The notes under the pieces are model-generated. The model made no database searches. It had not been told where the DNA came from and saw only the letters and a list, made by a program, of their open reading frames with translations. Positions 6,947 through 22,520 of a stretch of DNA of 37,053 nucleotides are shown one piece after another. The stretch comes from Alphaproteobacteria bacterium (GTDB lineage: Bacteria; Pseudomonadota; Alphaproteobacteria; Micavibrionales; Micavibrionaceae): the NCBI GenBank assembly GCA_030147745.1, contig JASBUS010000063.1:1-37053 (forward strand), in the 5' to 3' direction. Numbering within the stretch: position 1 is the stretch's first letter; every line of letters starts with the position of its first letter. A program made the translations under genes and the position numbers.

Positions 6947-8170
6947 TTATGCGGCAGCGGTCGCTTTGTCGGCATTAACAGCCGTGCTTTGACCTTGGCC
7001 AAGTAGTTCAGAGTAAACCGCGAGCGTTTTATCAATCATGATTTCTTTGGTGAAATTTTGCATGATGTGGTTCATGGCGCGCGTTGCTAACACGGCGCGC
7101 TGGGCGTTGTTGAGCGCTAAGGCTTCCGTAATGGCTTTGGCAAGGGCGGCAGGGTCATTTGGCGGGATTAACCAGCCTGTTTCACCGCGTAAAATTGTTT
7201 CTTGTGCGCCGCCGTGGTCGGTGCCGATAATGGGGCGGCCCATGGCTTGGGCTTCGACAGGAATGCGGCCAAAGCCTTCAGGGTCGGTTGAGGCGGAGAC
7301 CACAACTGTAGCCAACATATAGGCGGCAGGCATATCGTTACAATGGTCAACGATACGTACGCGGCCGACAAGGCCGCGCTCTTCCATCAATGTTTCAAGT
7401 TCTTTGCGGTATTCGGTGCGGCCTTGGTCAGACCCAATCAATACAGCATAAACATCTTTGGATTTAATCTGCGCCATCGCTTCGATAAGGACGGCTTGGC
7501 CTTTCCAGCGTGTTAAACGCCCCGGCAATAAAATAACAGATGCACTTTCAGGAATGCGCCATTCTTTATTGAGGGTGATCATGCGCTCTGGTGAGACCAT
7601 GGTCGGGTGGAATTTTTCAATTGGGATGCCACGGTGGATTAGGCGGATAGTGCTATCGTTTAAGCCATAGCCATCGATAAGGTAATTACGAACATATTCC
7701 GAAATCGCAATAACGCGCTCACCCTTCGCCATGGCGGAGTTATAAAATTGTTTCGCTTTTGACTTGTAATTATATGGCGCATGGCAGGTCGTCATATAAT
7801 GGGCGCTTGTGCCTTTGCAGGCTTGCAAAGCGCTCCATGCGGGCGCGCGGGAGCGCACATGGACAATATCAACGCCATGTTGATGTATGAGTTTACGAAT
7901 GCGGCTGACATTGCGCCATAAGGTCAGCGGGTTTTTGCTATGCACGGGCATATTGACATGAGTCACGTTATTGCGCGTAATTTCATGGACGCGGTCACCG
8001 CCATGTGAAACGACAATCGCTTTGCCGCCCGCATTTTGGATGGCGTTTGCAACATCGATACAGCCTTGCTCAGCGCCACCTGGGCCAAGTTCAGGGATGA
8101 TCTGCAATATTACAGGCGGCTTATTCGGCGCTTGTGTGGGGGGCATCTGTGCAGGTAAACGGTTTGTCAT
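6947..8170 (-). CDS. GT4-family glycosyltransferase
   Basis: A 407-residue GT-B enzyme. N-terminal domain: LQIIPELGPGGAEQGCIDVA (glycine-rich loop), VDIVHVRSRAPAW. C-terminal domain: LLPGRLTRWKGQAVLIEAM and the EX7E motif with E298 and E306 (PEGFGRIPVEAQAMGRP), which binds the sugar nucleotide of retaining GT4 enzymes. GGAQETILRGETGWLIPPND completes the family pattern. No membrane segment. Together with the GT9 enzyme it probably extends a lipopolysaccharide core or other surface glycan; donor and acceptor cannot be read from sequence. Start ATG 8170 has no strong ribosome-binding site; ATG nine codons in is an alternative. It is divergent from the hydrolase at 8297. Confidence 0.92.
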   Translation of the reverse strand: MTNRLPAQMPPTQAPNKPPVILQIIPELGPGGAEQGCIDVANAIQNAGGKAIVVSHGGDRVHEITRNNVTHVNMPVHSKNPLTLWRNVSRIRKLIHQHGVDIVHVRSRAPAWSALQACKGTSAHYMTTCHAPYNYKSKAKQFYNSAMAKGERVIAISEYVRNYLIDGYGLNDSTIRLIHRGIPIEKFHPTMVSPERMITLNKEWRIPESASVILLPGRLTRWKGQAVLIEAMAQIKSKDVYAVLIGSDQGRTEYRKELETLMEERGLVGRVRIVDHCNDMPAAYMLATVVVSASTDPEGFGRIPVEAQAMGRPIIGTDHGGAQETILRGETGWLIPPNDPAALAKAITEALALNNAQRAVLATRAMNHIMQNFTKEIMIDKTLAVYSELLGQGQSTAVNADKATAAA

Positions 8171-8296
8171 AGCGGTTGGGTATAATCGTGATAAATAAAT
8201 AATTAGCCTTTTGTTTTCTGTGTACTCTGCCTAAAATTGTGGGCGTAAGTCTTCCCGACTTGGCATTGAATTCAACCAGAACAGGACATATATAGC

Positions 8297-9058
8297 ATGA
8301 GCCATAAGCAAATTGCCAACGCAAAAGGACAAAATCTCGCCTATTTTCACCATCAAGGCACAAAAGACCTGCCGACGGTATTGTTTTGCGGCGGTTTTAA
8401 GTCCGACATGATGGGCAGCAAGGCGACTTATTTAGAAGAACGCGCCATCGCACGCGGGCAAAGCTATGTACGTTTTGATTATACAGGCCACGGCCTTTCG
8501 GATGGTGATTTTGTGGATGGGACAATCGGCGCGTGGTGTGACGATGCGTTGACGATTATTGATCACGTCATTCAAGGGCCGATTGTGATTGTTGGTTCAT
8601 CGATGGGCGGGTGGATTTCGCTGCTTTGTGCGCTGAAACGCCCTGAGCGTATTGCGGCGTTGATGGGGATTGCCGCCGCGCCAGATTTTACAGGCCGTAT
8701 CTATGATGAATTGCCCGATGAACAAAAACGCCAGATGGATGAAATCGGCCGCGCCGAAATCCCCAATGACTATTCAGATGAACCTTATATCTTTACGCGC
8801 GCTTTGCTTGAAGATGGCGAAGAAAATTTTGTCTTTAACGGCGATGATGTTGTCGATATACGCTGCCCTGTTTATTTGGTGCAAGGCGTGCTCGATAGCG
8901 AAGTACCATGGGAAACAGCAAGCTTTATTAGCGAGAATATTGCCTCAGATAATGTAATCGTTGAAATCATCAAAGATGCCACACATAGCGTATCGCGAGA
9001 GCAAGACTTAATCCGCCTTAATCACGCGATTGAATATTTAAATACGCAAGTTGCTTAA
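8297..9058 (+). CDS. Alpha/beta-hydrolase, ABHD10/YqiA-like serine hydrolase
   Basis: A 253-residue cytoplasmic alpha/beta-hydrolase. Catalytic triad by position: S102 in GSSMG (100-104), D200 in QGVLDSEVP, and H230 in DATHSVS. The oxyanion region FCGGFKSDMMGSKA and the FDYTGHGLSDG block are as in the group containing mitochondrial ABHD10, a thioesterase/esterase; many bacterial members are simply called alpha/beta-fold hydrolase. The substrate is unknown. ATG 8297 is preceded by a weak AGGACA. Its stop overlaps the stop of the convergent membrane-protein gene by four bases. Confidence 0.92.
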   Translation: MSHKQIANAKGQNLAYFHHQGTKDLPTVLFCGGFKSDMMGSKATYLEERAIARGQSYVRFDYTGHGLSDGDFVDGTIGAWCDDALTIIDHVIQGPIVIVGSSMGGWISLLCALKRPERIAALMGIAAAPDFTGRIYDELPDEQKRQMDEIGRAEIPNDYSDEPYIFTRALLEDGEENFVFNGDDVVDIRCPVYLVQGVLDSEVPWETASFISENIASDNVIVEIIKDATHSVSREQDLIRLNHAIEYLNTQVA

Positions 9059-9477
9059 GCGGCGTGATTGTCGTTATGCACCTGTGGCTGGACATGGGCG
9101 CGCCCACCGCTAAAACGTGCGCCTAAACGGTCACTGCTGAGCCAGTTTTTCTGTAATTCTGGCAGGTCTTTTAAATAATCTCTGAACGGGCCTTTATTGT
9201 GCAATTTGGCATTAATCACCCATGCGGTTGCGAGCGCCGAAAGTACAAAGCTATAGGTCACAAGGGAGGTTTTCATTGCGCTTGAGATCATCCCTGTATA
9301 AGCGGTATCCATAAAGGTCTTTTTCATCCAATAAAAGACGCTTGGCAGATAATTATAGATGTAATAACCAAGGCTTTGGAATTCAAAGCCATAGTCATAG
9401 CTGATGTAAAAATCATGCAAGCTGGTTGCGATGAGCGGTGATAACGCAAAGAAAAGATATAAACAGAGGCGCAACAT
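9055..9477 (-). CDS. Small membrane protein of unknown function
   Basis: A 140-residue protein that I do not recognise. The N-terminus is hydrophobic (LRLCLYLFFALSPLIATSL, 2-20), followed by an aromatic-rich stretch (many Tyr/Phe, 23-50), a second hydrophobic segment (TSLVTYSFVLSALATAWVI, 70-88), and a charged soluble tail rich in His, Gln and Asn. This suggests two membrane passes with the tail in the cytoplasm. The ribosome-binding site is weak. It is convergent with the hydrolase gene and lies upstream of an AT-rich inverted repeat and the tRNA. Codon use is like its neighbours, so I take it as real. Confidence 0.75.
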   Translation of the reverse strand: MLRLCLYLFFALSPLIATSLHDFYISYDYGFEFQSLGYYIYNYLPSVFYWMKKTFMDTAYTGMISSAMKTSLVTYSFVLSALATAWVINAKLHNKGPFRDYLKDLPELQKNWLSSDRLGARFSGGRAHVQPQVHNDNHAA

Positions 9478-9533
9478 ATAAAACCATTTCTGCCCCCAGA
9501 TACCCTAAAACTCGACCCTAAACGAATTAGATA

Positions 9534-9565
9534 GTTAATATATAATATACAACTAATATATTAAC
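9534..9565. repeat. 10-base inverted repeat upstream of the small membrane protein
   Basis: GTTAATATAT at 9534-9543 and ATATATTAAC at 9556-9565, 12 bases apart. The centres are about two helical turns apart, as for a dimeric regulator site, about 60-90 bases before the start at 9477. The surrounding DNA is very AT-rich, so chance is possible. Confidence 0.5.
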
Positions 9566-9622
9566 AAATATTGAATCGTCAAGTTAGGCAGGGCGTGGGG
9601 CACGATAATATGAAGTTATCAC

Positions 9623-9651
9623 TTGCCTTTAACGGCAAGACCCGCTAATTT
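9623..9651 (+). promoter_or_regulatory. Candidate sigma-70 promoter of tRNA-Ser
   Basis: -35 TTGCCT (9623-9628), 17-base spacer, -10 TAATTT (9646-9651), then a GC-rich stretch (GCGC) before the start region, as expected for stable-RNA promoters under stringent control. TTGCC/GGCAA forms a dyad over the -35. The tRNA begins 25 bases downstream. Confidence 0.45.
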
Positions 9652-9676
9652 GCGCATCGACCGCCATCATATAAAC

Positions 9677-9764
9677 GGAGATGTGGCCGAGCGGTTTAAG
9701 GCGCACGCCTGGAAAGCGTGTTGGGGGCAACCCCTCGCAGGTTCGAATCCTGTCATCTCCGCCA
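9677..9764 (+). tRNA. tRNA-Ser (anticodon GGA)
   Basis: An 88-base class-II tRNA including encoded CCA. Acceptor GGAGATG pairs with CATCTCC, the discriminator is G at 9761, and CCA is 9762-9764. The anticodon loop is TGGAAAG, giving anticodon GGA (reads UCC/UCU serine). The long variable arm (GTTGGGGGCAACCCCTC) is typical of serine tRNAs, and the T-loop reads GGTTCGAATCC. I searched nearby for a repeated 3' end as a sign of integration and saw none. Confidence 0.97.
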
Positions 9765-9852
9765 TTTAGTCTGAATTACTACCCCCCATAGAGAATATAC
9801 CCCCTCACGCCCCGCGTTTTGCGGGCTGTCGCGTATGTGTTTTGCTTAGAAG

Positions 9853-11526
9853 CTAACATGGGCTTTTGTGATTTGCTGTTTTGCGCGCTTTATTATTTAT
9901 GGCGTTTCTAAGCTCAACGGCAATACGGTCAGTGCTTTTATATTGCTCGTTATTTAAATACTTTTGTTCCAATTCATTAATGTCGACGATCTGTATTAAT
10001 GCGCGGGCAATTGAGGTGCTGATTTGTCTTCGGATATTATTATTTTCAAATATAGAATATAAATCTTCTTTAGCAGGCGCAGCCTTTTCTTCCAATCGGC
10101 ATAATCCTATTATTGCACCTAAAACAGCCTGTTCTTCTTTTTTGCGAATGTCGTCAAGTGCATTTCCGCTGTTTAAAAACGCTTTGTAGTCTTTTAGCGA
10201 ATTCATATATATGTAAACAGCGTTGTCGCGCCCTTCTCCTAAGCGTGCAATCGCCATATTGTTTGTGGCTCTTAGGGCTTTATTCTGGGCTAATTGTTCA
10301 AGTTGAGGCGCGATAATATCTGCGCGGCCATCAGGAAGTGCCATGATGGCGTTTGAAATAATATTTGAAGGTTTTTGTATAGCTCTGTTTCCTAATGCGA
10401 CGACTAACTCATCTGGTATATCTCTAAGCTTTTTAATTATTTTAGGAAATTCATATGAGAATTTAACTCTTTCATCTTGCAATGCATGGATAATTATACG
10501 GATTTCATCTGGGCTGTAAGTGTCTTTGCGTTCTAGGTCTCTCCAAAAGCTTTCTAAGAGTTGTACTGCTGCTAGATTGGGTTCATGTTTGTTATCCAAA
10601 TAATTACTTATGATTTGGATTTTATTTTCTGCACTTGTTTTGATGTTCTTTAGGGCGGTTGCTTTAAAAATTTTATAAACATCGTCTTTCGATAGTGTAT
10701 TTAGGTTTTTCTTTGTGCGTAATATTTCTGAGTGAAAGTCTAGTTGGTAGCCCCCACCTAGTCCAACCATAAACGGATAAGCTAAAGGCCGTGCTTGTAT
10801 CTGTGTTTTTTGATATAGAGTTTTTTTATCAGCGGTTCTGTTGTCAAATACAGTCACGCGATCTGCTCGAACGGTAACGGCATGAATTTTGAATTTTAAG
10901 TTTCTTTCAGCTGTGGATATTCCTTCTTTTCTATATATAAAATCTGCCGTATTGGCATTTCCTTTTGTCTGAATTAAGCACTCTCCATTAGCAATTCTGG
11001 CGGCGGTGCCATCTAATATCTTTGTTAAAGATGGGCATGATGTCCTGTTTTCTAAGTGGAAATTATATGTGCCGCCACCGTGGTAGTTAATGATGACCTG
11101 TTCATAGGCTTTGTTATATAACAAGCGTTGGCAAAGCGAATCGCATGTATATTGAGTATCACGACTATATGGTATCTCAAACGCTAATATCCCCCCAGTC
11201 GGAAGCGGCGTTTCAATATCAATGTCATCCTTTGTTAGGGCTTCAATATGCCTGTCTATGCGTGCATTAAAGACAAATGGAATGGCTAGCGCTAATATAA
11301 CAACCAAAGCTGGCGCGGCTACATATTTGTGTTTCCCGAAACGCTGAAAAAGAATAAAAGAAAGAGTTAACGCCCATGAATAGAGGGCTATAGTAGGCAT
11401 AAATGCTAAAATAAAGAATAATGGCCAAAAAAGAATGGTGAAGACCGCAAAAACAGGTGCGACAGTTATAAGGCCACCTAGGAATGTGACGATAGATAAA
11501 TAAACACCCCATGCACTTTTAACCAT
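9853..11526 (-). CDS. Orphan membrane protein with N-terminal TM segments and a helical-repeat C-terminal half
   Basis: A 557-residue protein of no family I recognise. Residues 5-90 hold about three hydrophobic segments (WGVYLSIVTFLGGLITVAPV; a long run near 27-60; AAPALVVILALAIPFVF near 70-87). Residues 90-275 form a mixed region with four or five cysteines (YTCDSLCQRLLY, RTSCPS, GECLI), probably periplasmic. Residues 290-540 are helical with a HEAT-like rhythm (VVALGNRAI, ISNAIMALPDGRADIIAPQL, NNMAIARLGEGRD, RQISTSIARALIQIVD). The ribosome-binding site is GGGGAG before ATG 11526. Base composition is visibly more AT-rich than in flanking genes and it sits next to tRNA-Ser, which hints at acquisition, but no integrase or att repeat is present. 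Confidence 0.85.
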   Translation of the reverse strand: MVKSAWGVYLSIVTFLGGLITVAPVFAVFTILFWPLFFILAFMPTIALYSWALTLSFILFQRFGKHKYVAAPALVVILALAIPFVFNARIDRHIEALTKDDIDIETPLPTGGILAFEIPYSRDTQYTCDSLCQRLLYNKAYEQVIINYHGGGTYNFHLENRTSCPSLTKILDGTAARIANGECLIQTKGNANTADFIYRKEGISTAERNLKFKIHAVTVRADRVTVFDNRTADKKTLYQKTQIQARPLAYPFMVGLGGGYQLDFHSEILRTKKNLNTLSKDDVYKIFKATALKNIKTSAENKIQIISNYLDNKHEPNLAAVQLLESFWRDLERKDTYSPDEIRIIIHALQDERVKFSYEFPKIIKKLRDIPDELVVALGNRAIQKPSNIISNAIMALPDGRADIIAPQLEQLAQNKALRATNNMAIARLGEGRDNAVYIYMNSLKDYKAFLNSGNALDDIRKKEEQAVLGAIIGLCRLEEKAAPAKEDLYSIFENNNIRRQISTSIARALIQIVDINELEQKYLNNEQYKSTDRIAVELRNAINNKARKTANHKSPC

Positions 11527-11717
11527 CTTTGCTTCTCCCCTATTAGACGTGCCTATGTTCCTTGGCTCGTTTTACCTTGTTTGCTGTTTCTTTTAAGAAT
11601 TTTGACATTGAAACACTAAACAATAGTTTATAAGTATATCTTACATCAGTGCTTCATGGAATTGAAGTTGTTGTTAATCTGGGTGGGTTGATGTATGCCT
11701 ACTCTACTATTCCCCTT

Positions 11718-12491
11718 CTAAAGCTTAAAATCCTCCAAAAAATCCCATGCTTCATCATTGATGAAGTCGGCGATGTCGTAATACCAGTGGTTATGGTCGT
11801 TGATGACGATGAGGCTGGTTTCGTGGCCGTTGGCGTCTAAGATTTCGGCTGATTTTTCGACTTTGTTGAGGGGGACGGCGCTGTCGTCTTCACCGTTGAT
11901 GAGGAGTATCGGGGTTTTGCGGCCGGGTTTAAGGCGGCTTAGCGGCGAATAGCTTTTTAATGCGCCGGCATGTATCGCCGCGGCGGCGATGTTTTGAGCA
12001 TTATTTATGGCGGCGACAATCGCCAGATGCCCACCTAAGGAATGGCCGAACATATAAATGCGTTTATGGTCAATGGAGTAACCATTTTCAACACGCTTGA
12101 TGAGTTTGTTAAAGAATGACCAGTTATCTGCATCTGTCCAAATGCCGTCAATGGCGTCTGGGGCAATTAATATCACGTCTTTGGAATCCGCAATGGACAT
12201 CCATTTTGCAATCATCGATTTACCGCTACGTTTCGCGCCGTGCAGCAGGATGATGACAGGGCGCGGGTCTTTGTTGCGCATGGTTGGCGCATAAAATTGA
12301 TAGCTGCGCTTTTTACCTTGATAGGTGACCTTGTCGGTGATTTGGTTATAGTCGCTCTCGATATATTCCGCCGAATAGTGTTGCTGCGATAGCGGCGAAG
12401 TAAGTTCTATGCGGTTAACTTCGGCAAAAGCAGGCGCTGCGGTGAAGGTTAAAAGCGCGAGGAGGAGAAATCTTTTGAATCTATTCGACAT
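11718..12491 (-). CDS. Secreted alpha/beta-hydrolase (PHB depolymerase/feruloyl esterase-like)
   Basis: A 257-residue exported protein: signal peptide 1-23 (FLLLALLTFTAAPAFA), then an LpqC/polyhydroxybutyrate depolymerase-like fold. YQFYAPTMRNKDPRPVIILL with HGAKRSG gives the oxyanion loop. The nucleophile is S151 in GHSLG (149-153), the acid is D202 or D203 in INGEDDSAVP, and the base is probably H235 in HNHW. The family hydrolyses ester bonds in polyesters or acylated sugars in the periplasm or outside the cell; the actual substrate is unknown. No strong ribosome-binding site is visible at ATG 12491. It is divergent from the small exported protein at 12608. Confidence 0.9.
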   Translation of the reverse strand: MSNRFKRFLLLALLTFTAAPAFAEVNRIELTSPLSQQHYSAEYIESDYNQITDKVTYQGKKRSYQFYAPTMRNKDPRPVIILLHGAKRSGKSMIAKWMSIADSKDVILIAPDAIDGIWTDADNWSFFNKLIKRVENGYSIDHKRIYMFGHSLGGHLAIVAAINNAQNIAAAAIHAGALKSYSPLSRLKPGRKTPILLINGEDDSAVPLNKVEKSAEILDANGHETSLIVINDHNHWYYDIADFINDEAWDFLEDFKL

Positions 12492-12607
12492 GGATCAATT
12501 CTTTGTTGTTATGCATCAAGTATTATAACTTTAGGTGTAGTGGTTAAGGCTGTCAAAAGCTTTTATGGGGCTATCGCTTGCATGGGGGTTTGATCAGGGT
12601 TATCCTG

Positions 12608-13018
12608 ATGATGATGAATTTTTTAGATAGGTTTTTTATGCGCGTTTTGATTTTGGCTTTGGTGGTGATGGTTTTTGGGTTTGTCTCGTTTGGGCAGGCG
12701 GCTTATGCGCAAGAGCAACAAAAAACCGCGCAAATTGAATTGATCGGCGCGGGGTCATTAACCTGTATGCAGTGGTTAGAGGCTGAAAAAGATGCAACGG
12801 TGAGCGCAACGATGGAATCATGGGCTTATGGCTATTTTTCGGCGATGAACCGCCTGCGCGCCGTCCGTAGTAAACCGCAATATGATATAAGCCGCCTTAA
12901 CAGTAATAAAATCCTCAGCTGGCTCGAAGAATTCTGCCCGAGTTATCCTGATTATTTGGTGGCCTTTGCGTTAGAAGCAATGATCGGGAAAAGAATCCAA
13001 TATAAACAAGAGCGCTAA
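12608..13018 (+). CDS. Small exported protein, HdeA/Rap1a-like pattern
   Basis: A mature domain of about 90 residues behind a signal peptide (VLILALVVMVFGFVSFGQA with cleavage near AYA-Q). Two cysteines (SLTCMQWL and EEFCPSYPDY) and the spacing LTCMQWL...WAYGYFSAMNRL...WLEEFCPSYPD...ALEAMI resemble the HdeA/Rap1a-type periplasmic proteins, whose members include acid chaperones and immunity proteins; this match is by pattern only. Several in-frame ATGs exist (12578, 12608, 12611, 12614, 12638). ATG 12638 would begin exactly at the signal peptide with AGG six bases upstream; I give 12608 as a middle choice. The function is unknown. Confidence 0.75.
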   Translation: MMMNFLDRFFMRVLILALVVMVFGFVSFGQAAYAQEQQKTAQIELIGAGSLTCMQWLEAEKDATVSATMESWAYGYFSAMNRLRAVRSKPQYDISRLNSNKILSWLEEFCPSYPDYLVAFALEAMIGKRIQYKQER

Positions 13019-13154: not shown

Positions 13155-14831
13155 ATGCAAAACAACATGATAGCTGCAGCACATGCAGTAAATTCTGGCG
13201 TATCTGATACAAATATTTGGGAAAAATCATATCCTGCTGGCCTCACATGGAACAGCAAGGTTGATGTTGCGCCCGTTTATGACATTCTGAATAGCGCCGT
13301 GGCACAATTTGCAGCCCGTCCAGCGATTTATTTTGAAGGTCTATCCTTGACCTATGCGGAGCTTGGCGCGCTATCTGACAAGGTCGCGGCGGGTTTGCAA
13401 AAGCTTGGCGTCGGTAAAGGCGTTAAAGTTGGCTTGTTTATGCCGAATACGCATTATTCTGTGGCGTTTTATTATGGTGTATTAAAATCTGGCGCCACGG
13501 TTGTGAATTACAACCCGCTTTATGTTGAGCGCGAATTAGAATTCCAAATTGGCGATAGCGAAACTGATTATATGGTGACGCTTGATATGCCAGCCATGTT
13601 TGATAAGGCCAATAATGTCCTGCGCAATACGCGCCTAAAAGGCATTATTGTTTGCCCAAGCGGCGCTGCAGATGCCGTGAATGCATCGGGCGAGTCTTAT
13701 ATCCACTATAAAGATCTTATCGCGAATGAAGGCAGCTATGCTGCGCCTGTGATTAACCCGCAGGATGATATTGCGGTGTTGCAATATACAGGCGGCACAA
13801 CAGGCACGCCTAAAGGCGCGATGTTGACCCATGCGAATCTTTATGCGAATGCAGTACAAATTGAACAATGGCATAGCCCGCTTGCTGTGCCGGGTGAAGA
13901 GCGCATTATTGGCGCTATTCCGCTTTTCCATGTGTTTTCAATGACCGTTGTCATGAATATGGCGTTAAAAATGGGTATGGAAGTGATCTTGGTGCCTAAA
14001 TTCGACCCAGAGCAATTTATTGCGTTGCTGAAAGAGAAAAAACCAACATTCTTCCCCGCTGTGCCGACGATATTTAACGCGCTTGCTGTGCATCCTGCCG
14101 GTGAAGGGCTTGATTTGTCATTTGTGAAATTCTGCCTTTCAGGCGGTGCACCATTGCCACAGGGCATTAAAGACGCGTTTGAGCGCCGTACAGGTGCAAC
14201 GCTTGGTGAAGGCTATGGCTTGACCGAAGCATCGCCAGTGGTGTGCTGTAATCCAACAAAGGGCAAGGTTAAAGTCGGCACAATTGGTTTGCCAATCCCT
14301 GGCACAATGGTTGAGATCATTGATATGGAAGATGGCGTCACACCGCTTGCCCAAGGTGCAAAAGGTGAAGTCTGTGTATCTGGCCCACAGGTCATGAAGG
14401 GCTATTACAACAAGCCTGAAGAAACCGCGAAAGTCATTAAAAACGGCCGCCTACACACAGGTGATGTTGGTTATGTGGACGAAGAAGGCTATATCCGCCT
14501 TGTCGACCGTATGAAAGATTTGATTTTGGTGCGTGGATATAATGTTTATCCAACCCAAATTGAAGAAGCGATTTCACTTCATGGTGACGTGCAGGAATGC
14601 ATTGTTGCAGGCGTTCCTGATGATGAACGCGGTGAAACCGTATGGGCGTGGGTTAAGGCACGTGATAGCTCTGACCTTAGCGAAGCGGCATTGAAAAGCT
14701 TCTTGGCTGATAAAATTTCGCCAATCGAAATGCCACGTAAAATTGTCTTGCGTGATACGCCATTACCAAAAACGGCGGTCGGCAAACTTTCGCGTAAAAT
14801 GCTTTTGGAAGAAGAAGGCATCACGCGTTAA
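13155..14831 (+). CDS. fadD: Long-chain fatty acid--CoA ligase (FadD-like, ANL superfamily)
   Basis: A 558-residue adenylate-forming enzyme that activates a fatty acid with ATP and then forms acyl-CoA. Seen: N-terminal IWEKSYPAGL typical of FadD; P-loop-like A3 motif YTGGTTGTPKGAML (211-224); GYGLTEASPVVCCNP (A5); LHTGDVGYVDEEGYIRLVDRMKD (A7/A8); DLILVRGYNVYPTQIEEAI; and the C-terminal catalytic lysine K544 in AVGKLSRK. Length fits FadD. ATG 13155 follows GGGGAA. It stands alone, with GNAT and VanX-like genes downstream. Medium-chain or aryl substrates cannot be excluded from sequence. Confidence 0.92.
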   Translation: MQNNMIAAAHAVNSGVSDTNIWEKSYPAGLTWNSKVDVAPVYDILNSAVAQFAARPAIYFEGLSLTYAELGALSDKVAAGLQKLGVGKGVKVGLFMPNTHYSVAFYYGVLKSGATVVNYNPLYVERELEFQIGDSETDYMVTLDMPAMFDKANNVLRNTRLKGIIVCPSGAADAVNASGESYIHYKDLIANEGSYAAPVINPQDDIAVLQYTGGTTGTPKGAMLTHANLYANAVQIEQWHSPLAVPGEERIIGAIPLFHVFSMTVVMNMALKMGMEVILVPKFDPEQFIALLKEKKPTFFPAVPTIFNALAVHPAGEGLDLSFVKFCLSGGAPLPQGIKDAFERRTGATLGEGYGLTEASPVVCCNPTKGKVKVGTIGLPIPGTMVEIIDMEDGVTPLAQGAKGEVCVSGPQVMKGYYNKPEETAKVIKNGRLHTGDVGYVDEEGYIRLVDRMKDLILVRGYNVYPTQIEEAISLHGDVQECIVAGVPDDERGETVWAWVKARDSSDLSEAALKSFLADKISPIEMPRKIVLRDTPLPKTAVGKLSRKMLLEEEGITR

Positions 14832-14889
14832 GACGCAAAAAATAAAATAGTAAAAATCAAAAATATAAAAATGAGTCTAGGAGATAAAA

Positions 14890-15582
14890 ATGGGAAAATT
14901 TTTATGTGCGTTGTTTAATCGTTGGGCAAAACCAGAAACGATACAATCAAAACCAATTACAATTGAAACACCACGCTTATTATTGCGTGAACATCAAGCA
15001 AGTGATGTTGATGCGATTTATAACATCTCAAAGCAAGATGGTTTTGTTTATTTCTGCTTTGATGGTACACGCAAAGCAGCAGAAGATTTTATTAAAGAAG
15101 CCAAAAGAACAACAAAAGTTGACCCGAAAACAGGTTTTCGTCCAAACCACATGTTGGCCATTACCCTAAAAGATACAGGCGAAGTGATCGGTCACACATG
15201 TATGGAAGCTGTAAACTATCTTAAGGGTGCAGATTTTGAAGTGAACTTCTTTGTTGACCCTAAATATCAAAATAAAGGCTATGGCCTTGAAGCGATTTTG
15301 AACCTTACAGATTATGGTTTCAAAGAGTTCGGCCTAGACACTCTAACGGTGACTGTGCACCCAAATAATGGCCCTTCGCGCCACCTTATTGTGAAAGAAG
15401 GCTATCAGAAGGTTGACGACATCATGATGAAGACTATAAATGGTCCAGAGCCTCGTGAGCTTTTTGTTCTGCAAAAAGAAACATTTTATGAGATGCGCAA
15501 GCAAGACAAGCGTCCAATTTTGTTGTCACAAGTGCCATTGTTCCAAAAACCAGATAATAACAAGCCGGAGCCTAAAATCTAA
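14890..15582 (+). CDS. GNAT-family N-acetyltransferase
   Basis: A 230-residue protein with a RimJ/RimL-type GNAT domain at about 22-190: ITIETPRLLLREHQASDVDA, LAITLKDTGEVIGHTCM, EVNFFVDPKYQNKGYGLEAI (acetyl-CoA loop, Q/NxxGxG-like) and VHPNNGPSRHLIVKEGYQKV. The C-terminal 40 residues are polar and Pro/Lys-rich. The ribosome-binding site is AGGAG seven bases before ATG. Its TAA overlaps the ATG of the dipeptidase (TAATG at 15580-15584), so the pair is translationally coupled. Codons are more A-rich than those of fadD upstream. The substrate is unknown; coupling to a D-Ala-D-Ala peptidase suggests a cell-wall amino compound, as inference only. Confidence 0.88.
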   Translation: MGKFLCALFNRWAKPETIQSKPITIETPRLLLREHQASDVDAIYNISKQDGFVYFCFDGTRKAAEDFIKEAKRTTKVDPKTGFRPNHMLAITLKDTGEVIGHTCMEAVNYLKGADFEVNFFVDPKYQNKGYGLEAILNLTDYGFKEFGLDTLTVTVHPNNGPSRHLIVKEGYQKVDDIMMKTINGPEPRELFVLQKETFYEMRKQDKRPILLSQVPLFQKPDNNKPEPKI

Positions 15583-16235
15583 TGACGAATACTGCTGTCG
15601 TGCCAGAGGTCGAGCTTATCGACTTTAGTAAAATTGATCTATTAGAAGCGACAGGTGCAAAGCCTGAGGTTGTTAAAATCTCAGAAGATGACGGCTTCTT
15701 TTTAAATGATCGTTTTTCTAATGATTTTCGTATTCGTAAATCTGTTTACGACATGATGAAGGCTGCGCAAAAACATTTGCCTGAAGGTTTTCATTTCATG
15801 ATTTATGAGGCTTATCGACCACTTGCACGTCAGGTTGAGCTTTGGGGCATGGCGGAAGCCTATATCAAAGAAAAATATCCTGCGCTGACAGGCCAAAAGC
15901 TGCATGACTTGATGGAGACATTTGTTGCTGACCCTTATAATGGGATTGGTAGCGGTCATCAGGCGTGCTGTGCTATCGATATCTCTTTATGTGATGCAGA
16001 TGGTAAAGAATATGACATGGGGTCTGGCTGTCAGGAAATTTGCGAGGAAGCAAATACATTAAGCCCAAATATCTCTGACGCAGCAAAACGTCACCGTCAG
16101 ATTCTGGTTGGCGCACTTGAAAAAGAAGGCTTCATTAATTATGGCTCTGAATGGTGGCATTATAGCTATGGTGATCACCAATGGGCTTATTTGGTTGGTG
16201 AAACTGAGGCGTTATTCGGCCCTATAGATATTTAA
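15582..16235 (+). CDS. D-alanyl-D-alanine dipeptidase, VanX/DdpX-type (M15D)
   Basis: A 217-residue zinc peptidase. Zinc ligands fit VanX: H126 and D133 (SGHQACCAID, spacing 7) and H193, with the catalytic base E190 in SEWWHYSYGD (spacing 3); the transition-state arginine is R79 in EAYRP. These enzymes split D-Ala-D-Ala in the cytoplasm; there is no signal peptide here either. In vancomycin-resistant bacteria VanX removes the dipeptide with VanH and VanA, but neither is present, so a role in D-alanine recovery from the wall (as for DdpX) is more likely. ATG overlaps the stop of the GNAT gene. Confidence 0.92.
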   Translation: MTNTAVVPEVELIDFSKIDLLEATGAKPEVVKISEDDGFFLNDRFSNDFRIRKSVYDMMKAAQKHLPEGFHFMIYEAYRPLARQVELWGMAEAYIKEKYPALTGQKLHDLMETFVADPYNGIGSGHQACCAIDISLCDADGKEYDMGSGCQEICEEANTLSPNISDAAKRHRQILVGALEKEGFINYGSEWWHYSYGDHQWAYLVGETEALFGPIDI

Positions 16236-16263
16236 CGATAGCGATAATAGATTTTATAAGAAA

Positions 16264-17259
16264 TTAAGGGCGCGCAGATGGATTTTGCGGGCCTTTTTTC
16301 TTGTCAGCCAATTGTGACCATTTTGTCAGATCAACCTCAATCGGGTGCTTATAGCTTGCTTGACCAGTTAAAATAATTTGTTCATTAGCCGCGTCAAATT
16401 TCAAATGCTGTACTCCGCCGACAAAGCCGTTATGTTGCTCTGGTGGGTATGGGAATAAATTGTTGAACTCATCTTTCAAGCTTGGGAAGGCTGTTTTGTT
16501 TTTAAGTTTCCAATAAGGAATGACTGAACAATTGGCGGAACCGCAGGCAATATCTTCATCAACGCCAATAATTGGTAAAAAGACGCGCGTCATGGTGTCA
16601 TATTGCGCGACTTCTGATTTTACGGTCGCCATAATGCCTTCATGTGAAAACTTCTTTGATTGAGCAAGGTTCGCGAGCTTATTAAAATCAGGACGCATAT
16701 TTATTAAAACATCTTGGTTTTTAAGTTCGACTACGTAATTAATAATGCGCGGCGCATAATAAGCAGGTTTAACAATATCTGAAGGCTTTATCTGTAGCGC
16801 TTCCGCCAGCAAGCTGTAGAATTTAGGGCTTTTGACTTCTTGCATTTCCGTTACGGCAGGCATTTTTAATGAAATATCGTTGCCCTTGATTGTCGCAATA
16901 AAGCTGTTCTCGCTATTGATTGCATATTTAGGGTTTAGTTTAAACGTGATTTCACGGCCTTTTCTAAAATCTGGATATTTAATCGCCAGTAATTCAGCGG
17001 CAGCAACAGTCGCATGGCCACATACATGGTTTTCTAAGCCATCTGGTGAAAAATGTCTTATTTCAAAAATATGCGGGTCATTTGTTGGGCGTACAAATGA
17101 GGTCATGGGGCTAGCCAGTTCCTTCGCGCATTTGCCCATGGTGATATCGTCTAAGAAATCATTAATTAGGCAAATCGTCGCCGGATTACCTAGAACATTC
17201 ATGCCGTTTTTTGTAAAGGCGTTGACTTGATGGAATTCTAGTTTATCTGGCTGTGTCAT
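16264..17259 (-). CDS. PhzF-family protein with an altered active-site motif
   Basis: A 331-residue member of the PhzF/diaminopimelate-epimerase-like fold, with two similar halves. N-terminal half: HQVNAFTKNG, NVLGNPATICLI, FEIRHFSPDGLENHVCGHATVAAAE. C-terminal half: IGVDEDIACGSANCSVIPYW. In PhzF the catalytic Glu is in a conserved S-E-T stretch before the first FV; the matching place here reads A-S-P-M-T-S-F, so M52 replaces it. Many family members are isomerases of unknown substrate. It starts four bases after the condensing-enzyme stop, with AAGGTG as ribosome-binding site, so the two form an operon. Confidence 0.88.
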   Translation of the reverse strand: MTQPDKLEFHQVNAFTKNGMNVLGNPATICLINDFLDDITMGKCAKELASPMTSFVRPTNDPHIFEIRHFSPDGLENHVCGHATVAAAELLAIKYPDFRKGREITFKLNPKYAINSENSFIATIKGNDISLKMPAVTEMQEVKSPKFYSLLAEALQIKPSDIVKPAYYAPRIINYVVELKNQDVLINMRPDFNKLANLAQSKKFSHEGIMATVKSEVAQYDTMTRVFLPIIGVDEDIACGSANCSVIPYWKLKNKTAFPSLKDEFNNLFPYPPEQHNGFVGGVQHLKFDAANEQIILTGQASYKHPIEVDLTKWSQLADKKKGPQNPSARP

Positions 17260-17263
17260 GGCT

Positions 17264-18385
17264 TTACACCTTCTTCACAATCACTGAGCCCACCGAATAA
17301 CCTGCGCCGAAAGAGCAGATCACGCCAAGGTCACCGCTTTTTAGGTCGCGGTTATGTTTGTTAAAGGCGATGATTGAACCGGCGGAGCTGGTATTTGCGT
17401 ATTCATCAAGAATTACGGGCGCTTCTTCGGTTGATGGGTCGCGGCCAAGGACTTTACGGCTGATCAGTTCGTTCATGTGTAAATTCGCTTGGTGCAGCCA
17501 CATGCGCGTTAATTTATCAGCTTCGATGTTGTTGTCATTTAAATGCTGTAAAATGATTTCGGCCACCATTGGGGTGACTTCTTTGAAAACTTTACGGCCT
17601 TCTTGCAGGAATAATTTATCGTCTTTGCCTATACCTTCTGGCGCCGTGCGGTTTAAGAAGCCGAAATTATTACGAATATTGTTAGAGAATTGGGTCTTTA
17701 GGCACGTGCCAACAATCTCAAAAGCGTTATCTGATGTGCAGCTGTCTTTGCGTTCCAAAATAATCGCTGTGGCCACATCACCGAAAATGAAATGGCTGTC
17801 ACGATTACGGAAGTTGAGGTGCCCTGAACAAATTTCAGGGTTCACGACCAACATTGCGCGGGCATTACCGGCGCGGATCATATCAGCGGCGGTTTGGATG
17901 CCAAATGTTGCTGATGAACAGGCGACATTCATATCAAAAGCAAAGCCATCAATGCCAAGAGCATTTTGGACTTCGATAGCGACGGCAGGGTAAGCGCGCT
18001 GTGAATTTGAACAAGCAAGCAATACGCCATCAATGTCCGCGGCGGTTTTATTCGCGGCTTTTAACGCGTCTTTTGCGGCATTGACGGCAATTTCGGCTAA
18101 GATCGACAATTCGTCATTGCTACGCTCTGGGATGCGCGGCGCCATAATTTCAGGGTCAAGAATTGAGTCTTTTTCAATGACGTGACGTGATTTAATACCA
18201 GAGACTTTTTCAACAAATTCGGCGCTTGAATATTCGAGGGCTTCGATTTCACCCGCCTCAATTTCGGCCTGATGCGCGGCATTATAGTGGTCAACATATT
18301 GGTTGAACGCGGTGACGAGCTCTTCATTGCTAATTGAATTTGGTGGAGTATAAAGGCCAGTGCCGCTGATGACGATGTCAGTCAT
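17264..18385 (-). CDS. Beta-ketoacyl-ACP synthase III-like condensing enzyme
   Basis: A 373-residue thiolase-fold enzyme of the FabH/KASIII group, longer than classical FabH (about 320) because of an extra segment at 28-55. The Cys-His-Asn triad is complete: C156 in [11 protein letters not shown]298 in [11 protein letters not shown]331 in [37 protein letters not shown] and the C-terminal [14 protein letters not shown] are typical. Such enzymes condense an acyl-CoA (or acyl-ACP) with malonyl-ACP; the chain length used is unknown. It is first in a two-gene operon with the PhzF-like gene and has a good promoter just upstream (18433-18462). It is not next to plsX, where the housekeeping fabH usually sits. 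Confidence 0.92.
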
Positions 18386-18432
18386 GAATTTTTCCCATTT
18401 AACGCTTATTATTGTTCTTTTGTAAAGAAGGC

Positions 18433-18462
18433 ACTATAGCGCGCTAAGCTACCGCTTGCCAA
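18433..18462 (-). promoter_or_regulatory. Sigma-70-like promoter of the KASIII-phzF operon
   Basis: On the minus strand: -35 TTGGCA (plus 18457-18462), 18-base spacer, -10 TATAGT (plus 18433-18438). Both hexamers match five of six consensus bases. The expected start lies about 40 bases before the ATG at 18385. Confidence 0.55.
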
Positions 18463-18583
18463 GGGGGAAATAGCGATTATTCAGCACGGGTGCGTTTATC
18501 GCGCGTGATTCGCGGTTAAGTCTTTATTTTTATATTAGAAAAACCATTTTAATGCTTGTTTACAATGGGTTGAAGGGGGCGGT

Positions 18584-18612
18584 TTGACAGCGGTTTTTTT
18601 ACGTCGCAAAAT
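18584..18612 (+). promoter_or_regulatory. Sigma-70-like promoter of the exported orphan at 18634
   Basis: -35 TTGACA (18584-18589, perfect), 17-base spacer, -10 CAAAAT (18607-18612). The leader is about 15 bases, and GGAGGG lies eight bases before the ATG. Confidence 0.5.
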
Positions 18613-18633
18613 ACCGCAACGGAGGGTCGGATC

Positions 18634-19137
18634 ATGCATAATTTAATCGCTATTCGCTTAGGCTTACCGCGTTGCTTATTTAGTCTCATTATTTTGCTCA
18701 CGCTTTGGAGTGGCTTTGGACATATGGCGCGCGCGCAAGACCAAGTCGCGCCAGAAGTTATGGCCTTCGCCCGTGAAATTTCCAAAAGCTGCCCGCATCA
18801 ATGGGAAGAGCAAGCCTGTTTGAGCGATGTTTCGGCGTCGACTTTGGTATTAGCCGCGAATTATGCGGGCGATTTACAAAGTAACGGTATGATTGGCGCG
18901 GTTGAACAAATTAAACAGCACTGCGCCGCTGCAACGGCCGCAACACAAGGTACATATCCCGCCTATGCCATGAAAAGCGCCTTTACTGAATGCGCCAATA
19001 AAATTTATGACGTCTCCGAACAAACCAGCATTAAACCAGACTTATCACATTACCAATTATTAATCGGCGCAATTTGGTGCATGAATAAAGATAGCCAATG
19101 TAAAACGATCGAAGATCAAATGGGTACGTTTCAGTGA
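18634..19137 (+). CDS. Exported cysteine-containing protein of unknown function
   Basis: A 167-residue protein that I do not recognise. Residues 1-34 form a signal peptide (CLFSLIILLTLWSGFG core, cleavage near ARA-Q). The mature part has six cysteines (SKSCPHQW, QACLSDV, KQHCAAA, TECANKI, IWCMNKD, QCKTIED), which could form three disulfides in the periplasm, and is otherwise Ala-rich and helical. It has a strong ribosome-binding site (GGAGGG) and its own promoter. It converges on the sulfotransferase gene with 13 bases between stops. No domain name can be given. Confidence 0.82.
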   Translation: MHNLIAIRLGLPRCLFSLIILLTLWSGFGHMARAQDQVAPEVMAFAREISKSCPHQWEEQACLSDVSASTLVLAANYAGDLQSNGMIGAVEQIKQHCAAATAATQGTYPAYAMKSAFTECANKIYDVSEQTSIKPDLSHYQLLIGAIWCMNKDSQCKTIEDQMGTFQ

Positions 19138-19150
19138 TTGGTACTTATCC

Positions 19151-20269
19151 TCAATACCCCCATAATTTTGCGGCGGTGGTGGTTTCTTCTTTGATGATGT
19201 CGCGCTCTTCGGCGTTTAGGGTGGTTTGGTAATAAGCGGGGGCTTTGATGTAGTCGGCCCATAATTTGCGCGTGCGCGCGGGGGTGGAAATCTCGGCGAA
19301 ATCGGCGATCATTTTGAGCATTTCATCACTTTCTTCGCAGAAATCTTCATAGCGATAGATGAATGTGTTGTCTGCATTGACGTAGCGGTCATAAACAAAA
19401 TTGTAAATATAGCTCCAATAACGCGCATAGCCGCGGAGGATATGACCCTGTTTGAACAGGTCGCTAATCGATTTATATGTTGCTTCATCATATAGATGGA
19501 TGGGGCGAATATCGTGGCCAAATTCAAAATGGCCGACGCGCTGTAAATGTTTTTGGGCGCGTTTGTCGTTTTCGGTCATGGCTGTGAAATGTTTATGCTG
19601 ACGATAGAGCGATTCGACATGGGTAATCGGGTCGCGCACCGGAATAAAGAATTTCGCATCTGGATTAAGCTTGGTGATGTAATCAATGCGGGCGATGTTG
19701 TAATTATCCTTTGCCAAATAGCGTTTGCGGCCAGATTGTAGCATGAGCTTTTTAATATGGTCGCTATAAAATTTTTCAAAAACCGGTTGGGTCGCATCGG
19801 CATTTAAAACCTGACATTGGCCACTTTGATGAATGAACGGGAAAAAATGCATCCAGAGCACTTCTTCCATAGCCTCAGGGCTGTCAGCATTGACGAGCAG
19901 GCCGTCGCCGTGAAAGCGCTCTTCGGGGCGGCCAGCTTTCATGAACATCATCTTTTGCATGACGCGCCATAAATATGGCGTGAAGATGAAGGGGAAGTCA
20001 CTATATTTATGCGAGACGAAATCTTTATGATCCGCCAAGAATTCTAGCAAAATGGTTGAGCCTGAGCGCGCTAAGCCGCAGACATAAACGGGCGCTTTGA
20101 TTTTCAGGGGCTCTAAATCAAATTCGAGGACCTTGCTTTCAAAATTGCCAAGGCGTGTCCAAAATTGCGGATGATTGCTGACAAGGCCGTTAAACCAGTG
20201 CCGCTGCATGGAGATTAGCTTCTTGTGCTTTTTATTTTGCCGATGTGCTGTGCCTGTCGAATTGACCAT
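19151..20269 (-). CDS. Sulfotransferase-family protein
   Basis: A 372-residue protein with the two PAPS-binding signatures of sulfotransferases: the 5'-phosphosulfate loop GLARSGST (65-72) and the 3'-phosphate site FIPVRDPITHVESLYRQH with R212 and S220. The family moves sulfate from PAPS to hydroxyl or amino groups of lipids, sugars or small molecules. There is no signal peptide or membrane segment, so it acts in the cytoplasm or at the inner membrane face. No PAPS-forming genes (cysN, cysD, cysC) are in the window. The first 20 residues are basic and could be trimmed if translation starts at a later Met (M21). Confidence 0.88.
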   Translation of the reverse strand: MVNSTGTAHRQNKKHKKLISMQRHWFNGLVSNHPQFWTRLGNFESKVLEFDLEPLKIKAPVYVCGLARSGSTILLEFLADHKDFVSHKYSDFPFIFTPYLWRVMQKMMFMKAGRPEERFHGDGLLVNADSPEAMEEVLWMHFFPFIHQSGQCQVLNADATQPVFEKFYSDHIKKLMLQSGRKRYLAKDNYNIARIDYITKLNPDAKFFIPVRDPITHVESLYRQHKHFTAMTENDKRAQKHLQRVGHFEFGHDIRPIHLYDEATYKSISDLFKQGHILRGYARYWSYIYNFVYDRYVNADNTFIYRYEDFCEESDEMLKMIADFAEISTPARTRKLWADYIKAPAYYQTTLNAEERDIIKEETTTAAKLWGY

Positions 20270-20606
20270 ATCGCCCCGTGAAGAATTGCGGAATAGAAAT
20301 GAGATATAATGCCCCCGTGCTTAAGCAAGAGTTTAGCGGAATTTAAAACAAAAAAGAATAGCGAAACATAATTATCTTGACTTTACCATAACTTCTGTGC
20401 GAGGGTGCGCACGCAGTTAGTATGATGAAAAACTGATATAAGCGAGCTTTAGCTACCACAGAGTGTAGCGTTAAGGTGTGATCCGGCAGCCTCAAAAAGA
20501 TGTCCCCCCTTGGAGAAAGTTCGATTTTAGTACGCATTCTATTGATGGCAAAGTTGATGCATGATGCATAGCTTTAATGAAACGAACTTTTGAAAGAGCA
20601 ATCTTG
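20270..20606. other. Long upstream region and probable 5' leader of the DEAD-box helicase gene
   Basis: 337 bases without a supported gene. It contains two hairpin candidates: CTGTGCG with CGCACGCAG around 20394-20418, and GCTAC/GTAGC at 20452-20469 extended by CTTTA/TTAAG. TATAAT occurs at 20304-20309 without a good -35, and TTGACT at 20377 without a good -10. A long structured leader is known for cold-shock DEAD-box helicase mRNAs; an unannotated small RNA is the other reading. A 64-codon minus-strand frame (20343-20537) has no support. Confidence 0.45.
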
Positions 20607-22520
20607 ATGACCGAATTTAACAATTTTGGCCTTGCACCCGCATTGGTGCAGTCCCTCTCTGCAATGAATTTTACAACGCCAACGCCAATTCAGGCACAGG
20701 CAATTCCTTTGGTCCTTAGCGGCCGCGATGTTTTGGGTTCAGCCCAAACGGGTACAGGTAAAACAGGCGCCTTTGCGATTCCTTTGATTAACATGTTACT
20801 TGAAAACACAGACGGTATGGCGCTTGTCCTTTCACCGACACGTGAATTGAGTAAACAAATTATGGATGCGATGCAGGAAATGATCCCACCGAAATGTGGT
20901 TTCCAAAGCGCGCTTCTTATTGGCGGTGAACATATGGGCCGTCAATTTGACCAATTGCGCCGTAACCCACGTTTGATCGTTGGTACTCCAGGGCGCGTTC
21001 ATGACCATTTGCGTCGTGGCAGCTTGAAACTTGAAGATACACGTTTCCTTGTGCTTGATGAAACAGACCGTATGCTTGATATGGGTTTCAGCATTCAGCT
21101 TGATGAAATCGCAGAATATATGCCAACAGATGGCTCACGTCAGACCATGATGTTCTCGGCAACATTGCCACATAACATTATGCGTATGGCTGATAAATAT
21201 TTGAGCAACCCTGAGCGCATTGAAATTGGCGCAAGCAACAGTGTTGCACAGAATGTTCAGCAGGACGTGATGCATGTTCAACAAGACAAAAAATATAAAA
21301 CATTGCTACACGAATTAAACACACGTGAAGGCAGTATCATCGTTTTCGTGAACACAAAGCGTGAGAGCGAGCAATTAGCGAAAAAATTGAAAGATGACGG
21401 CCTAAGTGCAGAAGCAATCCATGGTGATTTGCGTCAGTTCCGCCGTGAGAAAATCGTTAAAAAATTGCGTGCTGATAAATTCCGTATCTTGGTGGCAACG
21501 GATGTTGTTGCGCGTGGCCTTGATGTGCCGCATATCGCGCATGTAATCAACTATGACTTACCGATGATGCCAGAAGATTACATCCACCGTATTGGCCGTA
21601 CCGCGCGTGCGGGTGCGGTTGGTCAGGCTCTATGTTTGGTTAGCCCACGTGATAGCCGCCGTTGGAGCGCGATTTTACGTTTGATCGACCCAGAAAATGA
21701 CAATAACGCCAAAAAAGGTGCACGTAATGGTCAAACATCACGCCGTGCCCATATGGATCAAAAGCGTCAATCTGGCAAGAAACGCGATTTTGGCCGTAAT
21801 GATTTTGGTAAGAAAGACTTTGGCGGCAAGAAATTTGCGGGTAAGAAAAAGTCATATGATGATGGTTTCGGCGCAGCGAAGGGTAAAGATTCTTACAAGC
21901 CAAAACAACGTGATGATTGGTCGGATCGTCCAGAGCGTTCAGAACGCCCTGACCGTGGTGATCGTTTTGAGCGTCAAGATCGCAAAATGGATCGCGGCCC
22001 AAGAGATGGTCAATTTAAAGATTCGTTCAAAGGTAACAAATCAAAAGACGGCTTTAAGTCAAAATCTCGTGGTGACTGGTCAGACCGTCCGGCGCGCAGT
22101 GAACGTTCAGACCGTAGTGATTGGTCGGATCGTCCAGCACGTGGCGAGCGTTCAGATCGTCCACAACGCGGTGATCGTTTCGAACGCACAGAAAAGCGCG
22201 GCGAATATAAAGATACATTTAAGTCACATAAGTCAAAAGACGGTTTCAAGCCTAAGCCACGCGGCGAATGGGTTGAGCGTTCAGATAAATCAGGTGAACA
22301 ATCATCTGGTGAATTTAAAGCGAAGCGCCCAATGGGCAAAAAATCTGGTGGTTTTGATAACGGCCGTCCAGCATTTAAAGATGGCGGTAAGAAGCCATTT
22401 GCAGCGAAAGGCAAAAAGCCGAATGGCGGTAACCGTGATGGTGCACGTCCAAATAAAGGCTTTAAAAAAGGTGGCTCTAAGCCATTTGGTCAAGGTAAGC
22501 CAAACCGTCACGCCGCATAA
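20607..22520 (+). CDS. DEAD-box ATP-dependent RNA helicase with a long basic repetitive tail (DETD variant)
   Basis: A 637-residue RNA helicase. Core motifs: Q motif FNNFGL...PTPIQ; motif I SAQTGTGKTG with K52; Ia PTRELSKQ; Ib TPGRVHD; motif II reads DETD (151-154) in place of DEAD; III FSATLP; V ATDVVARGLDVPHI; VI HRIGRTARAG. The core ends near residue 370. The remaining 265 residues are a disordered tail rich in Arg, Asp, Ser, Lys and Gly with imperfect repeats, the kind that binds RNA and can promote condensates. I chose ATG 20607 rather than 20577 because GAG lies eight bases upstream and the family N-terminus begins there. Likely role: mRNA decay, ribosome assembly or cold growth. Confidence 0.94.
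   Translation: MTEFNNFGLAPALVQSLSAMNFTTPTPIQAQAIPLVLSGRDVLGSAQTGTGKTGAFAIPLINMLLENTDGMALVLSPTRELSKQIMDAMQEMIPPKCGFQSALLIGGEHMGRQFDQLRRNPRLIVGTPGRVHDHLRRGSLKLEDTRFLVLDETDRMLDMGFSIQLDEIAEYMPTDGSRQTMMFSATLPHNIMRMADKYLSNPERIEIGASNSVAQNVQQDVMHVQQDKKYKTLLHELNTREGSIIVFVNTKRESEQLAKKLKDDGLSAEAIHGDLRQFRREKIVKKLRADKFRILVATDVVARGLDVPHIAHVINYDLPMMPEDYIHRIGRTARAGAVGQALCLVSPRDSRRWSAILRLIDPENDNNAKKGARNGQTSRRAHMDQKRQSGKKRDFGRNDFGKKDFGGKKFAGKKKSYDDGFGAAKGKDSYKPKQRDDWSDRPERSERPDRGDRFERQDRKMDRGPRDGQFKDSFKGNKSKDGFKSKSRGDWSDRPARSERSDRSDWSDRPARGERSDRPQRGDRFERTEKRGEYKDTFKSHKSKDGFKPKPRGEWVERSDKSGEQSSGEFKAKRPMGKKSGGFDNGRPAFKDGGKKPFAAKGKKPNGGNRDGARPNKGFKKGGSKPFGQGKPNRHAA
21912..22262 (+). repeat. Tandem repeat coding for the helicase tail
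   Basis: Two imperfect units begin at 21912 (DDWSDRPERSERPDR) and 22071 (GDWSDRPARSERSDR), each ending in a SKDGFK-K-R block (NKSKDGFKSKSR and HKSKDGFKPKPR). The first unit is 159 bases; the second is longer by an inner copy of DWSDRPARGERSD. The pattern points to in-frame duplication. Confidence 0.75.

Follow-up and report, generated by a model that had tools for sequence, protein, structure and literature searches.

Gene content of the locus

The DNA analysed here, the window, is a stretch of 37,053 nucleotides that makes up contig 7 of a 2.39 Mb assembly of 101 contigs. Two genes lie in tandem on its reverse strand. The first (17264..18385) encodes a long-form KASIII of 373 amino acids, with the triad C156-H298-N331 and the CoA-site residues F57 and R195, and the second (16264..17259) encodes a PhzF-fold protein of 331 amino acids, a predicted racemase or epimerase that carries Met52 at the place of the catalytic Glu of PhzF and C80 and C239 at the catalytic positions of DapF. 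Three genes follow on the forward strand: an M15 peptidase of the VanX/DdpX-like kind (15582..16235), convergent with the PhzF-like gene, a GNAT acetyltransferase (14890..15582), which overlaps the M15 gene by 1 nt, and a FadD-like acyl-CoA ligase of the AMP-binding type (13155..14831). On the other side of KASIII, an ORF at 20577-22520 resembles by eye a DEAD-box helicase, and its extended tail is rich in repeats of Arg, Asp, Gly and Lys.

The stop of KASIII and the start of the PhzF-like gene are separated by 4 bases, and a Shine-Dalgarno-like stretch, AAGGTG, is found inside the 3' end of KASIII, ahead of the PhzF-like gene. Both ORFs, their strand, the 4-base gap and the C156/H298/N331 triad were as the original prediction had described them, and from the spacing an operon of the two genes is plausible. 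The same prediction had placed a good promoter in front of the pair. A promoter-like site, TTGGCA-18-TATAGT, with 10 of 12 matches, does lie in the right place upstream of KASIII (18433..18462, reverse strand); however, a scan of 5 kb gave 13 such sites, and shuffled versions gave a similar number (10.3 +/- 3.2). The site is well placed, but a match of this quality could by itself have arisen by chance.

For comparison we used a family sample of 104 genomes, in which G000 is the window genome and G089 and G090 are its congeners, and, for the long KASIII (NF005703), a class sample of 385 genomes. Within the family sample, G047 belongs to another genus than the window and G048 to the same genus as G047.

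The long-form KASIII

The window KASIII matched NF005703/PRK07515, the family of the PA3286/FabW/AbKASIII type, with 652 bits (cut-off 304) over residues 1-372, which is its full length, and scored 148 bits against the FabH model TIGR00747, below the cut-off of 292. It does not stand beside plsX. The plsX-fabH pair of this genome was found on contig 17, with the two genes 3 bases apart (plsX, TIGR00182, 326 bits; fabH, TIGR00747, 419 bits). Since this canonical pair is also in the genome, the sequence identifies the window protein as an accessory KASIII of the described long-form type. The prediction that it would not be housekeeping FabH, which had called for a search of the rest of the genome for plsX-fabH, was thus borne out, and KASIII as the only fabH of the genome is ruled out.

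Aligned with FabH of its own genome, the window KASIII has two insertions of about 24 and about 20 residues, and F57 stands opposite a FabH Trp. The best PDB match was 3led (542 bits), followed by 5yzu, 5yoa and 5yo9 (449-453 bits). According to excerpts of a published study, 5YO9 is the A. baumannii KAS III; AbKAS III, PA3286 and RSp0194 have two insertions in common which are missing from E. coli FabH, and mutation of F56 lowers the acceptance of octanoyl-CoA (PMC8036411). The window protein has F57 and R195 at the corresponding sites. Octanoyl-CoA is given as the best substrate of R. solanacearum FabW (RsFabW) in excerpts of another report (PMC4549310).

The A. baumannii long KASIII is also described, in the excerpts of the former study, as the initiating enzyme (PMC8036411), which would be in favour of the window KASIII acting as the chain-initiating FabH of the organism. 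We regard this as very unlikely, given the canonical FabH beside plsX in the same genome, the second KASIII match in all nine family genomes that have a long KASIII, and the results for the class sample, where an NF005703 match over the cut-off was obtained in 41 of 385 genomes and 39 of these 41 had at least one further KASIII match, as counted by match alone.

As for the accessory role, C156, H298, N331, F57 and R195 were invariant in all 49 long-KASIII sequences. Cys156 would take an acyl group, probably of medium chain length, from a CoA thioester supplied by FadD or by beta-oxidation and, together with His298 and Asn331, would join it to malonyl-ACP, giving a 3-ketoacyl-ACP; acyl chains would in this way enter fatty-acid synthesis in parallel with the canonical FabH. 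The FadD-like ligase is a possible source of the acyl-CoA in such a shunt; it accompanies the long KASIII in 4 of the 9 family loci, two of the nine ending early at contig ends, which is compatible with this possibility.

The stretch that separates the long KASIII from FadD varies in its gene content. When the window interval (13155-18385) was set beside four other loci (L093, L095, L096 and L100), PhzF, M15 and GNAT were found there in two genomes, an amidase (PF01425) with a GNAT in G090 and G102, and an amidase in G048, where the contig then ends. Elsewhere in the class the long KASIII has other company, which recurs in many other Alphaproteobacteria: a ygfZ-like gene (18/49 loci), tag (17/49), an NrtR-type regulator (15/49) and an HD-type protein (14/49), with nadA, nadB or nadC in fewer loci, the neighbour clusters being single-linkage groups that are each named by one representative. 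Of the 41 class matches besides the window, 40 were fetched, with the second G107 copy left out; several of the loci are near contig ends, and in four the KASIII ORF was placed by tblastn instead of ORF calling.

Two plasmids also came to our attention. The P. aeruginosa plasmid pPALO11 (CP075839, L144) has, within 7989-12874, a long KASIII with 67% identity to that of the window, followed by genes for an RNA polymerase sigma factor, zf-HC2, DUF692, DUF2063 and DoxX. A conjugative plasmid of Mesorhizobium sp. AR02 (L146) has a divergent long KASIII (8001-9122, 43% identity) two genes upstream of nifHDKE.

KASIII and PhzF in related genomes

The adjacency of the two genes had been read as a pathway leading to a small acyl-derived metabolite, with conservation of the pair as a check. 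In the family sample, a long KASIII with at least 70% identity is present in 9 of 104 genomes and a PhzF with at least 51% identity in four (G000, G017, G027 and G047). Three of these four have both genes (hypergeometric probability 0.0018, ignoring kinship), but only in G000 and G047 are they adjacent; G027 has them on separate contigs, and G017 has PhzF without a long KASIII. The order KASIII-PhzF-M15-GNAT-FadD is identical in G000 and G047, with the 4 nt between KASIII and PhzF replaced by a 1-nt overlap in G047. A PhzF match is absent from six of the nine KASIII-bearing family genomes, including both congeners, G089 (85% complete) and G090 (98%); G048 is 83% complete, and G089, G048 and G017 all lie within 83-85%. 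The KASIII of G048 is 88% identical to the G047 copy, yet other genes come after it. Of the 49 long-KASIII loci, some of which end soon after KASIII, 2 gave a nearby PhzF when searched with 29 PhzF queries, and none of the 40 loci outside the family did. KASIII next to PhzF as a general rule is ruled out by these counts. The pair as a conserved unit mostly failed: besides the window, a single one of the nine family genomes (G047) has PhzF adjoining, although what remains is an adjacency in two genera.

A true two-step pathway, in which the beta-ketoacyl product of KASIII would be isomerised by PhzF to a small acyl-derived metabolite, could draw on this adjacency and probable co-transcription in the window and in G047, on the long KASIII in three of the four PhzF genomes and on the FadD-like adenylating ligase close by on the other strand. 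It would have to account, however, for the rarity of PhzF near KASIII among the loci, for the six KASIII genomes of the family without such a PhzF, for G017 and G027, and for a neighbourhood (13155-20269) in which none of the identified genes encodes a carrier protein or a reductase. Moreover, PhzF keeps company with M15 and GNAT in all four genomes rather than with KASIII. We consider the two-step pathway highly improbable. The reading of the pair as a pathway is mostly refuted, and the inference of a pathway from adjacency, though tempting, is corrected here: KASIII and PhzF are probably two functionally separate neighbours. Shared regulation, or some missed role, is possible in G000 and G047, because the spacing is tight and the gene order identical in two genera.

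A conserved set of PhzF, M15 and GNAT genes

Close orthologues of PhzF (at least 51% identity), M15 (at least 59%) and GNAT (at least 54%), the last being the third member of the conserved set, are present in the same four of 104 genomes, which represent four genera, and the three genes are adjacent in each. For M15, nine further genomes gave distant matches only, and the chance of sharing these 4 of 104 genomes is 2e-7, ignoring kinship; for GNAT, distant copies (38-41%) were seen in G102 and G099, with a second one in G047, and there were many weaker matches elsewhere. PhzF is convergent with M15-GNAT in all four genomes, the two stop codons being separated by -4 to 28 bases. The four PhzF copies are 47-59% identical, and their identities give no clear order.

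We searched for further members beyond the family. With the PhzF alignment, 4 of 142 were matched in the order at E<=1e-20 and 1 of 372 in the class sample, the window's own, at E<=1e-30, so that no further members were found by these searches. A contig scan with the PhzF protein alone gave no relative and a scan with the PhzF alignment gave three, which correspond to G017, G027 and G047; both scans rely on short peptide patterns being matched exactly.

A peptide-transporter cluster, with genes for a transporter permease, an ABC ATPase and an M20 peptidase, surrounds the set in G017 and G027, though at a different position in each. In eight related loci the same transporter cluster lacks both PhzF and M15, and one of the eight (in G047) has a lone distant GNAT. 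The GC content of the set in the window is 0.408, in comparison to a mean of 0.462 (sd 0.024) over 32 other genes, one of which is lower; this low GC is limited to the window and is found in none of the other three genomes. Horizontal transfer and repeated loss are both candidate histories of the three genes.

The M15 protein matched PF01427 with 65 bits. Its residues R79, H126, D133, E190 and H193, which we take to have the metal-binding and catalytic roles, are invariant in all four copies and align with those of VanX (1r44), and because of this the protein is probably an active metallo-dipeptidase. Its scores against the DdpX and VanX equivalog models, 84.5 and 46.4 bits, are under the respective cut-offs of 176 and 320 bits.

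VanX-type and GNAT enzymes are established resistance chemistries, and the set is patchy (4 of 104 genomes, with congeners that do not have it) and placed at different sites across genomes. These features would agree with a module for detoxification or self-protection, which would inactivate a peptide or amino-acid-like antibiotic by hydrolysis, acetylation and isomerisation. Yet with 46 bits the M15 protein falls far under the 320 bits of the VanX equivalog cut-off, the identified neighbours of the sets include neither a ligase nor a regulator of the van type, and the location of two sets in clusters for peptide transport that also have an M20 peptidase suggests nutrition. We find the protective role unlikely.

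Active site of the PhzF-like protein

The PhzF-like protein matched PF02567 with 113 bits (cut-off 27) and TIGR00654 with 85.1 bits (cut-off 76.2); two of the four subfamily members are under the TIGR00654 cut-off. As comparison we used 25 other PhzFs of the family (29 further genomes were matched and 26 loci returned, of which L061 had no usable ORF), and the alignment of 28 rows leaves out L039. At the position of PhzF Glu45 all four subfamily members have Met (Met52), while the 25 other PhzFs have Glu without exception; at the second site the four have Cys (Cys239) and the 25 have Thr. His82 and Asp236 are kept in the four copies, the Asp being replaced by Glu in one of the 25 others, and all 28 aligned sequences share C80. 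Because the E. faecalis structure 1s7j has the second-site Cys together with Glu, the sequences indicate that it is the combination of Met and Cys that is distinctive, and not the Cys alone.

In a profile alignment to 30 DapF sequences of the family (hhalign, probability 97.3, E 2.5e-11), C80 and C239 fell on the two DapF Cys columns; both catalytic cysteines were conserved in 30 of 30 DapF sequences, collected from both strands with no motif filter. The four-row PhzF profile alone aligned with DapF over part of the first half only (probability 22). The PhzF-like protein gave no match to PF01678 (DAP_epimerase), PF02567 being its only match at E<=0.001. An AlphaFold model calculated from the 28 rows had a pLDDT of 93.1, whereas the four-row model had low confidence around C239. 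In the model C80 lies directly before the helix 81-94 and C239 just before the helix 243-253. The fold was closest to PhzF 9f96 (Z 31.0, rmsd 2.7, 274 aligned residues), and DapF and proline-racemase-type entries followed with Z of about 19.5-24.

In excerpts of a study of PhzF, proton transfer depends above all on Glu45, with His74 and Asp208 as further critical residues (PMC4586147). Most amino-acid racemases and epimerases that work without a cofactor have Cys as both bases, according to excerpts of a review (PMC8142540), and the titles of PDB entries list the DapF mutants C73S and C217S. The nearest precedent that we found is PrpF, in which, as given in excerpts of the report, K73 occupies the place of PhzF Glu45 next to a DapF-type C107, and whether C107 is catalytic is debated (PMC5690661). 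Among the listed papers on PhzF proteins with an altered active site, covered mostly through the starts of their abstracts, none describes this subfamily, and our literature search gave no paper that links PhzF with a D-alanyl-D-alanine dipeptidase.

Since the key proton-transfer residue of PhzF is replaced by Met in all four copies, the protein could be a degenerate, non-catalytic PhzF or a D-amino-acid binding protein. Against this, His82, Asp236 and both cysteines are invariant among copies of 47-59% identity, the replacement of Glu is paired with Cys at the second DapF site, and the linkage to M15 and GNAT has been retained. Loss of catalysis thus appears doubtful to us. Because the PhzF Glu is lost and two cysteines stand at DapF positions, the most likely activity suggested by the sequence is racemisation or epimerisation of an amino acid or short peptide via two-base thiolate/thiol proton transfer.

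Proposed function of the set

On the basis of the sequence comparisons and the model, we predict for the PhzF-like protein a role in D-amino-acid or peptide metabolism, as a two-thiol racemase or epimerase that needs no cofactor. In the set, which sits downstream of KASIII in the window genome and in one other, this protein, with two cysteines at DapF positions and without the general acid/base Glu, would act alongside a D,D-dipeptidase-like M15 enzyme that would release or use D-amino acids and a GNAT that would acetylate an amino group. What the analysis shows is the gene content, the co-occurrence, the residues and the predicted fold; the substrates and the direction of the pathway are inferred, as would be any part in salvaging wall peptides. 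Taken as a whole, the explanation that we find best, and to which we give about an even chance, is that of an accessory long KASIII and a separate PhzF-M15-GNAT set with a racemase/epimerase-type PhzF.

We call the family Micavibrio-like, and a predatory life style is presumed from that name alone; NCBI taxonomy places Micavibrio under Bdellovibrionota. A more far-reaching version, which we put forward only tentatively, would be that in these Micavibrio-like bacteria a protein of the PhzF fold has become a racemase/epimerase with two cysteines of the DapF type and, with a D,D-dipeptidase and an N-acetyltransferase, forms a transferable module that uses or disarms D-amino-acid peptides, perhaps fragments of the prey wall.

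The KASIII is of a known type, and what is of interest is the PhzF-M15-GNAT set, in which the active site has been exchanged. It offers a small, testable case in which a PhzF/DapF scaffold has switched its active site: the Glu of the isomerase is lost, and the two cysteines of the racemase are present. If active, the protein would be a cofactor-independent racemase within the PhzF branch, and with it a D-amino-acid-peptide gene set would be present in Micavibrio-like bacteria.

Comparison with known systems

The window KASIII is like the A. baumannii KAS III (5YO9), P. aeruginosa PA3286, R. solanacearum FabW/RSp0194 and 3led in its full-length family match, in the two insertions relative to FabH, in the C/H/N triad and in the Phe and Arg of the CoA site. 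It differs in its surroundings: its neighbours are FadD and the PhzF set, whereas other long KASIIIs of Alphaproteobacteria are accompanied by ygfZ, tag, HD and NrtR-like genes and sometimes by nad genes.

The M15 protein resembles the VanX/DdpX D-Ala-D-Ala dipeptidases of the M15 group by its PF01427 match and the aligned R/H/D/E/H residues. At the first metal His, however, the four copies read HQACC where VanX reads HSRGS, and the window protein scores well below both equivalog cut-offs.

With PhzF/YddE proteins (PF02567, TIGR00654) the PhzF-like protein shares the fold (Z 31.0 to 9f96), H82, D236 and the CGHAT motif. It differs from PhzF, the DHHA isomerase, in having Met in place of the catalytic Glu45 and Cys239 in place of Thr, and no phenazine genes (phzA-G) were seen among the identified neighbours. 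The 2-methylaconitate isomerase PrpF has Lys (K73) where the window protein has Met, and the window protein has both DapF cysteines.

DapF itself (PF01678 at E<=0.001) gave no match in G027 and 17 others, i.e. in 18 of the 103 genomes searched, some of them 99-100% complete. Three of the four genomes with the PhzF set (G000, G017 and G047) have a separate DapF with a PF01678 match, by which PhzF as a general replacement of DapF is ruled out. With DapF, proline racemase and hydroxyproline epimerase the PhzF-like protein has in common a related fold (Z of about 19.5-24) and Cys at both catalytic positions, the second lying in the context ACGSA in the window protein and ACGSG in DapF. Unlike the members of the DapF superfamily, it has no PF01678 match, and in sequence and fold it is closer to PhzF.
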